Shown here: positions 3,101-64,000 of the stretch, piece by piece
Position numbering within the stretch: position 1 is the first letter of the stretch
How the letters are laid out: every line of letters begins with the position of its first letter
From: Antedon mediterranea
Taxonomy: Eukaryota; Echinodermata; Crinoidea; Comatulida; Antedonidae
Reading direction: 5' to 3'
DNA length: 64,000 bases
Assembly (NCBI RefSeq): GCF_964355755.1
Contig: NC_092678.1
Span: 5,984,922-6,048,921 of the forward strand
The notes under the pieces: generated by a model
Told to the model about the DNA's origin: nothing
Databases searched by the model: none
The model's input: the letters and a program-made list of their open reading frames with translations, nothing else
Translations under genes and position numbers: made by a program

Positions 3101-6100
3101 AGAATCATTAAAATAAATAACTTATTACTCTTACTGCTATTTCCTCTTTACATATAACTGGTTCCTCCTTTACATGATACCAATTCTATCTTTTACATGC
3201 CACTGCTTCCTTCTTTTACATGCCACTGGTTCCCTCTTTTAAATGCCACTGGTTCCCTCTTTACACAACCCCTTGACACACCATCGGTTCCCTCATTTTA
3301 AATACAACCCATTAGCACACCACTGGTTCTATCTTTACATGCCACTTGCTCCATCCCTGGTTCCCTCTTTTAAATACCACTGGTTTCTCTTTACACACAA
3401 CCACTTAGCACAGCACTGGTTCCCTCTTTTTTAAATGCCACTGGTTCTTATTTACACACAACCACTTAGCCCACTGCTGGTTCCCGCTTTACATACCATT
3501 TGCTCCTTCCCTGGTTCCCTCTTTACATGCCACTGGTTCCTTATTTACATGCTACTAACTCTTTCACAGGTTTTCTCCTTACATGCTACATTTTAAAAAG
3601 CTTTACAACAATTACCTATTGTTCTTCCATGTCTTAGCCATGGCCTGACCAGCATCATTTTCTTCTGCTTGTGCATCAAAGAAATCAAACAGATACTTTA
3701 TGGTGACTGGAACGGAAATGTCACTGTCATCGCTAGGAGCCTTTAACATTGCTCTAAACATACCATCCACATACTTTTGTATTGTTGTCTAAAAACATAA
3801 CACAAAATAAAATCAGAAAATAACAGGGTTGAAAAACAAATGCAATACCTAATTTAGGAAGTGGAATTATACTCAAGGAGGTAGGATTATACTAAAGCAT
3901 GCGATTATACTAAAGCATGGGATTATACTCAAGCATGAGATTATACTCTACTGTCGGATTATACTCTAGTGTGGGATTATACTCTAGTGTGGGATTATAC
4001 TCAAGCATGGGATAATATTCAAGTATAGGATTATACTATTAAGCATAAGATTATACTCTAGCATGGGATTATACACTAGCATAGGATTATACTCGAGCAT
4101 TATACTCGAGCATGGTATTATACTCGAGCATAGGATTATACTCAAGCATAGGATTATACTAAAGCCTGGGATTATACTCAAGCGTAGGATTATACTCAAG
4201 GAGGTGGGATTATACTCTAGCATAGGATTATACTCTAGGGTGGGATTATACTCGAGCATGGGATTATACTCAAGCATGGGATAATACTCAAGCATGGGAT
4301 TATACTCAAGCATGGGATTATACTCAAGCATGGGATTATACTCAAGCATGGGATTATACTCAAGCATGGGATAATACTCAAGCATGGGATTATATTAAGC
4401 ATGGGATAATACTCAAGCATTGGATTATACTCAAGCGTAGGATTATACTCAAGGAGGTGGGATAGTACTCTAGCATATGATTATACTCTTGAATAGGATT
4501 ATACTATAGCAAGTATTTTTTAAATGAGACCTTAGTGGACATAAGACGAGGAAAATGGACTTCATGGATTGTCTTTAACTTCCGTCTGTAGATGGATCCA
4601 GTTTTATTTTTCCTTCGGGAATTCCTTTGTTCATCTTCTAACGGATCTACGTCTTTGACCTACAACAAACAACACATCAAAACAAAGTAAGAAGAATTTA
4701 ATTAAGTAATTCAATTTTTGTAAAGACAGGACCTGGAACTCAAAGCATTTCAACTCAAAGGAACTAGCTGTGCAAGAGAGCAACTGAACTGAACTAGTAT
4801 GTGAGCGTTTATGTCAACATATGGAACTAGTGGTCAACAAAACGCACACAAATCAATTAGGAACCAATGCGTGCAAGCCCTATATGTAATCATCAAACTG
4901 ATTGCTACTGGTTGGTTACCCAAACCTCTCGTGATTTACAGTCGTCAGTTGCATTAAGTTCTTAAAAAAAGTAGAACATGTTCAACTCAACTGAAAGTAT
5001 TGCAAAATAGATTGACATAAAGGGGTTGAGTTTCGTTGAGTTCTTTGTTGACATAAGTCCACCTTTAAGAGAAGATAACACAGTTTGCTTACCAAATGCC
5101 AGGGCTGTGCGCCCTTTTCTAAATTGGAATCTTCAGCATTAAAGCCATATTTTGCATCCATGTTAATAGTATTTTCTAAAAGTAATCAAACTTTACAAAT
5201 TAACAAATGTCGGTAATCACAACTTTTCAGAATATATAAATACCATATAGGTATATATCTTTACTATTAAAAAGTGCCATACCAAGTCTTCATGACTGGT
5301 TTGAAGTCAAATAACTTAGGGTTGGACGACTATAAATTCATTATTATTAGGTCACTATCATCTGATATATATATTATCTGACAACTTTACTCAATTTGGC
5401 AAGAGGATAAACAAAAACTGGTGTCAGTACTGAAAAGATGGAAATTAGATACACTCCTTTTCAAGAGCACTTCCATGCCTGTATTAGATTTATGCATGTC
5501 TTTTATGAGATCTTTGTCCTATACCATGACAAAATACCAACGGTAGATGTTGCCATCAATGTAATTGCATTTAAAAACTAATACTATTTTAAATTTATTT
5601 TTTAACATTTTTATACATTTAAAAAAAAAAAGGTTACAAAAATAAAGATAACAATTTCATATATCTATAGATGGTAAATCATTCCTTATACATTTCGAAT
5701 TAGTTTACTAAATTTTTTTCCATAATGCATAAGAAATAAAAGACTGTATACAATTAAAGATCAGAAAATAAGAAACAATACATTAGAGCCTCTTTAAGAT
5801 GTATTTCAAAACCAAATAATATTAAATATATGGGACTGTTTCCTTAAAGATGTATTGTCCCCCAAAAACATGAAAAATGAATTTAATAAAATCATACTTT
5901 GAATATGTTATTTTGTAGTTTTAATAAAGTTAATCACTTCCTTAGAAAAAAAATGAAAAAAAAAAAAAAATGTTTTCACTTATAAAATAACAAAATTCAA
6001 CCAAAAATCCATTGGCTGGCAGCCAATTTGACCATTTTTTGCTTTAATTTACATTTTTTCAGGTAAATACAATTTTTTTTGGATCAAATTTGTGGTCAAA

Positions 6101-9100
6101 GTGGATAACTATTATGTTACATTAAAATAGAATATTCAACACATTTTTTTTTAGGAATTATTTTTTCAGGGGGACAATACATCTTTAAGGGGACACTCTC
6201 GGGACTAAACAAAGTGTCCCCTGAATAGGGATTGGCTGTAGTGTTAAAATATATATATTTCCTGTTGTTTCTTGGAAATGTCCCCTTAATAGGGGTACCT
6301 TTTGAATTGGTGTTAAAATATATATATTTCTTTTTTCATGGGAAAGTTGTCATCAATACCTTAAAAAGAGTACCAAGAGTCAAGTAAGCCAAAGTTGTTT
6401 ATTTAATAAAATGGTATGTAACAAAATATAAGTGTTCTCAATAAACTCTAGCTAAACAACAGTCTAGTGAAAGAAAAAATAATTAGAAAAAAACATTTGC
6501 AAAAGAATTTAATAAAGACCACATTATCAATATTGATATATTTATGTTTGTACATCAGTAATTAAATTATAATTAATAACCTTAATTTAAAATTTTGTAA
6601 CAAAAAAATATAGAAATTTGTAACAAATAGAAATTCTGAAATTTAATAAAAATTTTTTAATAAAAATTGAAATCATAAAAATGATCGATTTGAAAAAAAC
6701 AGTTCTCACCGTATACTGGATTTGTATTCGTGACGATCTGGCCTACAGTGGCGCTATGCCGTCCGTTTGCGCGGTGTATTAGTGACACAGTGGCACCGTC
6801 TTTTATCTATTGAGTGAAATTATCTAGAGAATCAGATCTGAGATCCTCTTCTGCAACCACGCATGACTGTTGCTACCACAGCAAATTTCACCCAATCATG
6901 GGGTGAAAGGTCATGCACAAAAAAAATCTGGGACTTGTCTACTAGACAATATATTACTTATTTATCCGCAGAAATAATTTACTGAGAATTTTTTTCAGTT
7001 AGAATAGAAAATTGTATGACAAATTATGTACAGGGAGAAATGCAGTATTTTTCCAGTAAAAAACTTTTACCTAAAAATGTGTTATAAACCAAATATGTAT
7101 TTGAAAATATAAAAATGACTAAATAAGTTAAAAATAGCATAGTTTACAAGAATAAAAGATTATACCATATAATTTTAATATTTACATTGATTTTTCAATA
7201 TAATTCCAATATTACTTTTATAAAAATATATATTTTGTTTTGACATATTGGAAAAAATGTCCAAATCGCCCAATGATATACTGAAAACCTATGAATTCAT
7301 GTCTAAATTTAAAACAAAAACATGCTCTGAAAAGTTTTAGACCAAATTTTCAGATTTTTTTGTGTGTGATGACCTTTAACCCCAATAATGTGCAACCGAA
7401 GAAAAGACATGCATGAATGGACACAAGTGCGATTTTCAGAAAAATAAGCATCTAATGAACAAACCATGCGAAGGTTGTCATGAAATTGTTGAAAAACAGT
7501 GGTGCAAGCAGAAAAAATAAATAAAAAGATAGTCTTAAAGTAGGCCCTATTTTTATCCTCAATATTACACTGCATATCTACAATAACTAAAACCGTACTA
7601 AAAAGTCTGGACCAAAAGTCTACCATTTCTATTTCACAACAAATATAAATTTTCATGATTATTAATCCAATCATGCATTAATAAATCAAATTTCAAAAAA
7701 TATTTGAATAATTTATGTAAATTAGTTACGCATAATTAAAATTTGACCAATAGCCGAATAGAATCTGTTGAAATGCAGTAAACATTGAGGACTATTTTCG
7801 TAAGCCAAGCTTTTAGGACTCACCTAAATGATCAACTGTCGTGGGACTAATAAAAATAGATGAAGGCTTAGCGTTAGCTACTTCCTGCTTTGGAACAAGT
7901 GCGACTAACGAGCCATTCCTTATCTAAACCATAGTGAAAGAAAATGCGAGGAGAAAAAAAAAACAATGGGGAAAAGAAAAAAAAAATATGAGGAGCGATG
8001 AACAGAAAGCTGTAAAAGAAAAATGGTGATAAGCACAAGAAACGCATCAAGCAAAAATGAAAATTGTTTGCATAACAAAATTAAATTAATGTGTCTAACA
8101 AAATCAATTAACCGTTTCTCAGTACTGCATCTTAAATTTTTACTGTACCATAGGCAAATTCTGTAATACAGCATCACATAAGAAACACATGTGACACCTG
8201 TATCATTAGCTATACACCTGACATAAAACTGGTGACACATGTGATACAATATGACAGTGTATTACCGAATTTGCCTACAATACTGCACAAATAATGCCAT
8301 ATGTGGAGATACAGTACAGATATTCAGGTGGATCAATTTGAAAATAAAAAGCATAATTTTAATGAGCAAACTAAAATCGTTTAGTATTCCAAAGCTCTTT
8401 CCAAATTAAAATGCAACAAAATATTTTGGAAAATGAAATTATTGCATATCAAAGGGGATGAAATGTCTACTAAAAGCATGGAAATAGTTCCATGTGAAAT
8501 TTGACAACCTGTATCATGCAAATTTAAATGCAAACTATGACCAATTCACACACAAATACAATGCAACAAATTAGATAAAGATTAATGTCAAATTTATTCT
8601 ACTGCAGTTATTGCATTAACTTTCTTCAGTAACATATGGTTATGGATATGGTTTTAGTTTCAATGTAGAGGTTTATGAGGTTGTCACTGCAATAAACAAT
8701 ATGTATGAACAGCAAAGAGTAAACAAATGTAGTTACTGCAGTAACTGCAGTTAGAACAATTTGGAAATGGTGAGTTATAAAATCATTTCTCACAGATTTT
8801 GGCCATGTTTGTAAATACTTGCGTGTTTTAGAGTTTTTTATCTAATTGTTTTTATTATAATTATCAGGTGTAATTATTATACATAATTTGATTCTTTATA
8901 TCTTTTTTTTATTATTAATAACTTTTTCATTTTTTCAAAAGAAAACTTTTATAAGAATTATGTTTCCACAACAAACAAGTTCAACACAGCATTCAGATTT
9001 TGCCAATTTGTTTTTGTTCCACACTTAAAAATCAATATTTATTAAAAAAAATATTCCAGGTAAAAGTGAAGGTTTTAAACCATAACACAATCAAATTAAT

Positions 9101-12100
9101 CGTGACATTAAAGCCTTGTCTACACTATTAAACTTGATATGACAACAAAATGTGATGTGTCCATATATGGACATGATGATGTCATATCAGTACCATCTTT
9201 AAGCATATCACTACCATCTCTAAGCATATCACTACCATCTTTAAGCATATCACTACCATCTTTAAGCATATCACTACCATATTTGGGCACATCACACTTT
9301 TTTGTCAAACTAGTTTGATAGTGTAGACAGTCAAAGTCAAGTTAAGTTTTTGTATTTAATTTTATTTTATTCTTCTTGGACACGAATTAATAAAAATGTC
9401 ATTTCAATGTGCCACATAGTACAACCAAAATAAATGACTTAGACAAGCAAGCAAAATAAAACATACCTTAAAGTGTTCTAATGTGTTTAATTGCCGCCAG
9501 TTGTTGACTGTCTTGGAGGTGTTATCTATATCTGATAAAACAAGGTGACCGTGTTTTCCTGCCCTTAAATCTATCAAAATACAAATTTTACATTTGTAAA
9601 TTATTAAAAATAAATCTCACTATTCCGATCTCCCGATTCTCAGTAATTTACCTATATTCCACCGGTATCATATCAAATTCAATAATACAGAATCACATTT
9701 TATTTCACATCTACGGCCTATTATCATAGATTATAATATAAAGAATGGTTCTCACTAAAAGAAAAATAATCTATCAATTTTGCATCCCCTCTTAAGGCAA
9801 ATTGAATAATACTTTTTACGACGTACAACACGAAGCAGAAAGCAGAGTTTGATTCTCATTTTCAGCTCTGGGAACGCAGCTTAACCTTTGACCTTGCTTA
9901 CCTAAATCTACACTGGAAGCGGAGGGTCTATTAGAATATGGTCTGCTTTTATACATGGCATCAAGAATCTTCTCTTTTACTTGAGATATACAATCGCAAG
10001 TAAGAACGTTCACACTGATCATATCTGCATCTCCCTTGTTGTCCATTGCAACTGTTAATTTCTAAAGTAGTTATAAGTTTTTGAAAAATGATAATTGAAT
10101 ACGAGGGGTGTTACAATATAATACTTACAAAATAAATCAAAAGTATTGTATAGGAATAATATTATCAATTCTTAATTATCATTGCACTGTGCTTTTATGC
10201 AGTAACCTAAGCTTACAGGCCTAGGACTAAACCGGTTAATATAGGACGATAGGCCTGGCTGGAAGAACAGTTCTGAAAAATTGGACATGACAGAAAACCA
10301 AAATGTTCAGACAGTCTGAAGAGTGTCAGGTTTTGGGAGATTCCACTGTACTGAAAAACAATGCCTCTCGTAGGATCAAGATAAAAAAACAATGCAGTTC
10401 GTAGAACTGCGATCAAAAAACAATGCAGTTCAAAAACAATGAATCACATGGAATCGGGACCAAAACACAGTACCTCGTAGCATGTACCATGTGTAGCCTG
10501 AAGTAGCCACAAAGCTTGATGTGGGTTACGGTGCAATAATTTTTAACTGTACTGTACTTCGTAACTCATGAAACATTCCTTAATGTGTTTTTATGATGGA
10601 ATTTTAGGAGGTATTTGGCATACTTACAATTTCTTCAAAATCCACACTATCTTTAAATAAGTGATCTATGCTTAATGAATGGTAAGACTTTTGTGTTACA
10701 GCATCAACTGGTCCCTTCCATACTTTGTATTTAATGGCTTGATATAAAAGGAAAAGTGGGTAACCAGCGTGATCCTATAAAAAAATACAAAAAGTGAAAT
10801 ATTATGTACATCTTTCAACCAGTGTGTTCATATATTTTTATTTTATTTTATATACATCCAAATTTTTAAATTAAATTTTTCATACTAGATAGTTCTCGAA
10901 TACACAGTAATTTCACATGTACTTAAAGCAGGACTATAATACATGTCGCATGAGCCCCTTTCTCACAGATGTGCCCGCAATATACCGGTACAGTGCTGGC
11001 GTCGTGCCGGTATCGTTACCGGCATATACCCATTCTCATCGGACTATCGTGCCGGAAATATAACCGGTATATACCGGCTTTCTGTGAGAAAGGAGTCGGG
11101 CATATTCGGCCAATAAAAAGTCTCTGACAAAATAATTATTGAGGGCATCCTTTATTATTATTATTTTTGTCTAGCGATGATATGGCGGCGAATGTTAAGT
11201 TACAGATTATTATCTTCCTTTATAGCATATTTATGCAATACATGCTATGTACAGTATATTGTGCATATATTATACAGGTATAGCAATTAATTTGCCGTCA
11301 TCGGCAATCTGTAAAACACCTTAGAAGGCTGTAGGCCTACAATTTACAAGGCGACGAAAGGTCAGGCACCAACAAACAAAGAGCTAAAATGGCCTAGCCT
11401 AGCGGCCTATATAGATTATGCTACAAATTTCTTCTTGTCCCCTTATTTTAAGCAGCTCTCTTATCTCATTATCCCTCCAGTTCGACATTATTATTGTTAA
11501 TTGAATTGAATAGGCGCCAAAGTGATACACTTGACTGCGCAAGGTGTCAAAGCCTCGACGGGGAACCCCGGAATATAACGGCAATACGTTCTCACAGAAT
11601 GCCCGTCTGGCATTGCGGGGAATATCCTTAGAATATTACTAGGTCTAAAGCAGGTCATGTCGATGCCGGCATGGTGCCGGCATGATGCCAAGACGACCCG
11701 TTCTCACAGAAAACCATACCGGCATGGTAATGGTATATTCCCGCAATATTCCTGGCACACAACTCTGTGAGAAAGGGGCTATACAGGAACGAATACATAA
11801 ACATAGACAAACAAGTTATAGTATGTTTTCAACAACATGATACTAATATGCTTACCTTTAGATGATCATACATACACAAAGCAACCCAGTTACTAACTAA
11901 CTTCTCTCTCACTGATTCAGTCCTACAAAGTATACATCAAAATATCAATGTGAATACTTTTACAAAAAGTTTATATGAAATGTTGAATTCTTTTATAACA
12001 TCTATTGACATTTTTATAAGTGAATAAAGGGAGAGATGGGGAGACAACTCATATCAAATCAAACTGGTTATAAAATTGGGCAGAAAGTACTAAAAATCAG

Positions 12101-63510: not shown

Positions 63511-64000
63511 TCTAGAATGTGATTGTACTGTACTAGGTCAAAAATCAAAGGTGTCCCCTTAATAGAGGTTTTACTATACAGTATCATATTTTTTCATTAT
63601 TAATTATTCTTGTACTATATTCATTATTTGAAAGAAGTACCAGGAAATTAAAGCACAGATGTAGTAATTTATTTTAAACAGAATGTTCCCTTAGGTAACC
63701 AATTGTATATTACATAGTATTTTGTCCCAATTAATATAAATATGATAAAGGCTCCGGAGACTTTAGTACACTATTAAATATAAATGTTATAATTTATTAA
63801 TATTGAAATTTTGATTATTTTCTTCTTGAAAGGAAAATTGGCAATTGAGAAAGCTTTAGTGAATCTAACTTAAGAAATATCTTAAAATAATAATATATCG
63901 CAGTCACATATCCCATAATGCAACTGGGCCGTAATTATGAATTAGTAAATGGACACATTTATGATATTATCTAGTTCAATATATTGAATATTGAAACGTG

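Follow-up and report, generated by a model that had tools for sequence, protein, structure and literature searches.

The window analysed here, a stretch of 64,000 nucleotides from the feather star Antedon mediterranea (Crinoidea, Comatulida, Antedonidae), is part of contig C9 in a genome of 354 Mb and 18 contigs. It holds part of a plexin gene and, at the end of the region encoding the RBD, a pair of alternative exons, here called A and B. The features are as follows, in window coordinates:

1 to 58285, minus strand: the part of the plexin gene within the window, from exact mapping of the protein P0003 and Pfam matches to Plexin_cytopl and Plexin_RBD
9467 to 9570, minus strand: shared upstream exon encoding RBD strands and ending ...NTLEHFK, phase 1 in and 0 out; boundaries match the P0003 mapping
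7924 to 7990, minus strand: long pyrimidine-rich tract 5' of exon A, 84% pyrimidine at -40 to -3
7824 to 7923, minus strand: alternative exon A, 100 nt, phase 0 to 1, beta5 strand with LVP and start of the RBD-GAP linker; used in P0003
7891 to 7899, minus strand: LVP codons of exon A, from the sequence
6710 to 6806, minus strand: alternative exon B, 97 nt, phase 0 to 1, homologous beta5 strand and linker start; inside a P0003 intron, same form in Anneissia P0004
6774 to 6782, minus strand: LIH codons of exon B at the place of LVP, from sequence and alignment
6754 to 6756, minus strand: TAG met when A and B are both included (nt offset 50 of B, 18th codon)
5093 to 5175, minus strand: shared downstream exon encoding the rest of the linker, ...QPWHL, phase 1 in and 0 out, from sequence and P0003 mapping
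5119 to 5121, minus strand: TAG met when A and B are both skipped (nt offset 54 of exon 5175-5093)

All 1813 residues of P0003, a public Antedon protein named 'plexin-A4-like', map exactly to the minus strand in 33 coding exons with 32 introns resolved, and its first exons fall beyond position 64000, from 69083 upwards. With a concatenated query, matches above the Pfam cut-offs were obtained for PF08337 (360.5 bits), PF20170 (124.5), TIG (43.6), PSI_Plexin-B (29.9) and PSI_PlexinA-B (28.7), while PF01437 and PF17960 stayed under theirs; a SEMA domain (PF01403) is among the precomputed domains of P0003. The gene is thus identified as a plexin by its cytoplasmic GAP, RBD, PSI, IPT and SEMA domains.

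Our own model of the cytoplasmic part agrees with P0003 residue for residue over 619 of 629 residues. The last 10 residues differ because P0003 uses another copy of the last exon. More specifically, exon 181-41 has an upstream tandem copy with a period of 205 bp, identical over 144 nt (window 420-1; copy starts 386 and 181), which soon runs into a stop; P0003 takes this truncated copy and therefore stops early. The tandem copy reflects either a partial duplication of recent date or an error in the assembly. Elsewhere in the gene, long tandem repeats lie inside two introns (1640-2890 and 3984-4480, with frames reading VSHKRNIKMTC... and YNPMLE...). At the 12366/11922 junction, an intron-split codon in Antedon gives W in place of the second arginine of the GAP stretch that reads FRRTESV in Anneissia P0004; in P0005 and P0008 this place reads RNETV.

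Exon A (7923-7824) reads IRNGSLVALVPKQ... and exon B (6806-6710) reads IKDGATVSLIHR.... They are adjacent homologous exons at the same protein position, matching in phase and nearly equal in length, and both have GT-AG borders, with AG before each exon and the donors GTGAGT (A) and GTGAGA (B). The introns measure 1543 nt from the upstream exon to A, 1017 nt from A to B and 1534 nt from B to the downstream exon. Because both exons are entered in phase 0 and left in phase 1, either one alone keeps the frame, and the combinations with A alone or B alone between the shared exons are open; with both exons or with neither, the frame runs into a TAG. An earlier sequence-only reading had placed both exons after NTLEHFK, with these lengths and phases and with gtgag donors, and had predicted a stop at the 18th codon of B on joining A to B and another in exon 5093-5175 on skipping both. 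The sequence bears out each of these points, the stops being found at 6756-6754 and 5121-5119. The match to Pfam Plexin_RBD runs to the end of the profile in both isoforms, with 118.9 bits for B and 114.4 bits for A. P0003 includes A, whereas B falls within its intron between 7824 and 5175 and is absent from that model; the public Antedon entry consists of this single model with A only (1 member sequence).

To score exon B, a 10-residue beta5 profile was derived from other plexins and exon A, leaving out exon B itself, and was combined with the presence of an AG, an open frame and a phase-1 GT. One reference peptide in the profile is offset by one residue, which blunts the test slightly. The score of 17.8 makes B the best phase-correct candidate in the 2648-nt intron, and it was reached by none of 3000 dinucleotide shuffles (maximum 16.4). 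Codon log-odds are the same for B and A, 0.13 bits per codon (median of the other exons, 0.18), a value reached by 0 of 30 intronic AG-open-GT decoys. At the peptide level A and B resemble each other beyond shuffles (score reached by 14 of 5000), but their DNA similarity is not above shuffles (121 of 500), which points to an old duplication. That same DNA result is what could be said for B being an open frame with splice sites by chance. The shuffles and decoys nevertheless rule this out for practical purposes, and the occurrence of the same form in Anneissia strongly disfavours it; we give it next to no credence.

The Anneissia sequence, P0004, is a 'plexin-A4-like isoform X2' from Anneissia japonica, of the family Comatulidae, and contains the B form. 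Antedon B is identical to it at 26 of 32 residues (0.81), compared with 23 of 34 and 21 of 27 for the flanking exons and a range of 0.57 to 0.92 over 15 cytoplasmic exons. B is therefore conserved about as well as the neighbouring exons, linker residues included, and on this comparison it is constrained between two crinoid families. The sequence-only reading had named a decayed exon in an orthologous alignment as an outcome that would speak against it; B is instead intact. The public models annotate A in Antedon and B in Anneissia, each model holding exactly one of the two forms. P0004 is the representative of 2 sequences, and the B form is taken from that one representative; no exon of type A was seen in Anneissia. 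The Anneissia isoforms X1 and X2 may differ outside the exon pair, since the C-terminus of P0004 is odd and looks like intron read-through. Protein searches confined to single exons added no further species: of 9 candidates in one search and 2 in the other, the sole hit was the query.

Further plexin RBD exons lie on the same contig. At least 16 places on C9 match the first plexin RBD exon (at 2.46, 3.44, 5.82, 5.99, 12.2-12.97 and 14.05 Mb), 11 of which lie at 12.2-12.97 Mb on both strands. A scan for beta5 exons at 9 of the 16 found two in the present gene and one in each of 8 others; it lists phase 0-to-1 candidates above a score, using profiles and patterns from these exons, so that a very different second exon would escape it. 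In 6 of the 8 other loci, all but those at 5.82 and 12.82 Mb, the scan extended to the next shared exon; an extra weak match at 12.63 Mb, upstream of the preceding exon, was left out of the count. A duplication common to the whole plexin cluster is unsupported, since the 8 other scanned loci have one beta5 exon each.

In the paralogue at 3.44 Mb the preceding exon also ends QLNTLEHFK, and the single exon reads IKSGYRIALVPKQ. Pairwise scoring puts the single exons nearer to A than to B in P0008, P0005, the genes at 12.50 and 12.63 Mb and a fish plexin-A1, and puts the 5.82 Mb exon nearer to B. Judged by such pairwise scores, A is probably the ancestral type and B the derived copy, with the 5.82 Mb exon speaking against this order. 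Two paralogue introns (C9:12501900-12504176 and 12629000-12629900) harbour a tandem repeat whose period is about 41 nt, and for this reason the same peptide (SNVQHTVPLFTISNPMSNTLCPYSQ...), broken by stops, appears in all three frames.

According to the sequence-only reading, one exon resembles class A plexins and the other class B. As a resemblance over some ten residues this holds. The A stretch alone has its best match, a weak one (E 0.03), in solved plexin-A1/A3; with its flanking exons it matches plexin-A1 (E 2.8e-10) and plexin-B1 (E 4.2e-10) almost equally; and the B isoform with both neighbouring exons matches plexin-B1 best. When the Anneissia B stretch alone was searched against the PDB, the one hit was a lyase (E 0.007) and no plexin was returned. 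A switch of class is not indicated: the shared cytoplasmic part scores plexin-A1 (223.4 bits) and plexin-B1 (221.7 bits) alike, and the ALVPKQ form also occurs in a paralogue that has a single such exon. The PSI_Plexin-B profile is also matched, and the names 'plexin-A4-like' and 'plexin-A1-like' look automatic.

Splice signals were compared within the gene, with an acceptor matrix built from its own 31 other acceptors and correspondingly small. The B acceptor scores below all 31, and that of A is weak too, with only 3 of 31 lower. Pyrimidines make up 84% of positions -40 to -3 before A and 57% before B (gene median 61%, lower quartile 57%). The donors of A and B fall in the lower third, where 9 and 10 of 31, respectively, score no higher. 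These signals offer a slight hint that A could be the default and B used upon activation. An inverted-repeat scan, read over the 25 longest of its 40 pairs, brought up AT-rich or local pairs and nothing convincing as competing RNA pairing, docking or selector sites or duplication scars. The intron after exon B contains a 35-nt inverted repeat (window 5834-5868 and 6164-6198, 86% complementary), perhaps the ends of a mobile element.

Taken as a whole, the locus is likely to represent an old tandem exon duplication that is spliced one-or-the-other and alters Rho-GTPase coupling. The splicing step of this explanation we regard as highly probable; its functional step stands at about an even chance. 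One exon of a crinoid plexin gene would have been duplicated in tandem long ago, giving two alternatives of which one is chosen. The intron of 1017 nt between A and B looks too long for steric exclusion, and exclusivity would for this reason be policed mainly by the reading frame and nonsense-mediated decay. Nonsense-mediated decay would remove the wrong products. A would serve as the default and B would be switched on in certain cells. The original claim, that the end of the RBD is encoded by duplicated exons used in mutually exclusive fashion, accordingly gains from the anatomy, from the conservation and from the presence of each form in a different crinoid's public model; exclusivity itself is read from sequence and models.

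Two other accounts of the splicing deserve consideration. If the duplication were ancestral and each species had since settled on its own exon, Antedon would now use A only and Anneissia B only, and in both the unused copy would be a relic. The public models, with A only in Antedon and B in one Anneissia representative, would fit, as would the Antedon B acceptor, the lowest-scoring of the gene; but in Antedon B is open, has both splice borders, shares 26 of 32 residues with Anneissia and has a coding score equal to that of A, all of which is unlike a long-dead exon, and we find this account unlikely. Alternatively, B might be included together with A mainly for the sake of the TAG, lowering receptor levels through nonsense-mediated decay, and the B protein would be of little importance. 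Such poison-exon control would suit both the weak acceptor score of B and the position of the A+B stop upstream of several further junctions. It is harder to reconcile with an exon that alone stays in frame, is conserved as protein and is present without A in the Anneissia model, and we consider it more improbable still.

The functional step concerns a tripeptide, LVP in exon A, LIH in exon B and LLH in the Anneissia B form, and the first part of the RBD-to-GAP C-linker, which exons A and B also encode. Plexin RBD mutants carrying GGA are reported to lose binding of Rac and Rnd. Judging in part by alignment, we take LVP of plexin-A2 and LSK of plexin-B2 to occupy the same structural position, the beta5 tripeptide. 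The available parts of the two sources describe a plexin-A2 RBD mutant with LVP replaced by GGA (PMC9852426) and a plexin-B2 RBD mutant with LSK 1558-1560 changed to GGA (PMC7846610). 'LVP' occurs 0 times in PMC3166162, PMC5645086, PMC8219378, PMC5117210 and PMC9553217. In the portion of PMC8219378 available, mammalian plexin simulations place the C-linker within an allosteric route from the RBD to the dimer interface. AlphaFold2 models of the two isoforms, of low confidence (mean pLDDT 55.7 and 48.8), have a strand at the tripeptide in both (residues 96-101 and 95-100).

Because the swap affects both the tripeptide strand and the start of the C-linker, it could plausibly shift GTPase choice or coupling, and GTPase binding or autoinhibition may be altered. 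Under the preferred explanation, replacing LVP by LIH along with the first stretch of the linker would lead the RBD to bind another Rho-family GTPase, or would change the coupling of the RBD to the GAP dimer through the C-linker. In its strongest form, the pair would be a switch that turns the Rho-GTPase input of one crinoid plexin on and off or swaps its partner: A would read Rac/Rnd via LVP, B would be deaf or hear another Rho protein, and cell types would select between them. This remains a tentative proposal. A comparably tentative view is that the isoforms are real but functionally near neutral, with the swap varying no more than a strand end that tolerates change and a linker that is flexible. 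The place of LVP is taken in crinoid paralogues by LVM, LIA, LVK, LIN or FVD, with LVP itself at 3.44 Mb, so a change there alone need not abolish binding; the C-linker, moreover, is partly disordered in plexin crystals, as stated in the part of PMC8219378 consulted. Against near neutrality, B is about as conserved as its neighbours even in its linker residues, and the strand end is the site altered to make the RBD mutants in the accessible text of PMC9852426 and PMC7846610.

Mutually exclusive tandem exons are a well-known type of splicing, and what appears new here is their location in the plexin RBD. In the part of PMC9741552 available, tandem duplicated exon substitutions are described as mostly ancient, found in many membrane proteins and mostly bringing a conservative change within one region. 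The plexin pair resembles such events (PMC9741552, in that part, and PMC5740500) in consisting of adjacent homologous exons of which one would be chosen, here as judged from sequence. It would likewise share a one-of-several choice among duplicates with mutually exclusive exons governed by RNA structure (PMC6071210, and PMC9013439 as far as available), but unlike these it has two copies only and no clear docking/selector pairing among the longest inverted pairs. Compared with the laboratory mutants of plexin-A2 (PMC9852426) and plexin-B2 (PMC7846610), as reported in the portions available, the change falls at apparently the same beta5 tripeptide, whereas LVP and LIH would be natural splice alternatives in which the following linker is altered too. 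The main text of PMC5740500, which concerns human, contains neither 'plexin' nor 'PLXN', and that of PMC9741552 does not contain 'PLXN'. Literature searches over titles and the starts of abstracts, one of them covering the best 20 of 286 records and supplementary files being outside their scope, returned no report of an exon pair in the plexin RBD; exon lists from fly or elsewhere may hold a plexin case. In the same phylum, an expansion of plexins, called Plexin-B, is described for Acanthaster planci in the available part of PMC6374515, and it resembles the present case in its many plexin copies, the chromosome of this gene carrying many RBD exons. The word starts 'exon' and 'splic' occur 0 times in PMC6374515.

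We conclude that the exon pair is real and probably functional, and that its position is unusually informative. Work on plexin RBDs has used artificial mutants of a single tripeptide; two natural versions of that strand together with the linker, if both are spliced, would provide a ready-made comparison: comparing the isoforms for GTPase binding and GAP activity would show what the RBD and the linker contribute. If the explanation is true, a receptor family that gene duplication had enlarged in echinoderms gained additional diversity through exon duplication, and splicing could re-tune a plexin, a cell-guidance receptor, at its presumed Rho-sensing spot.
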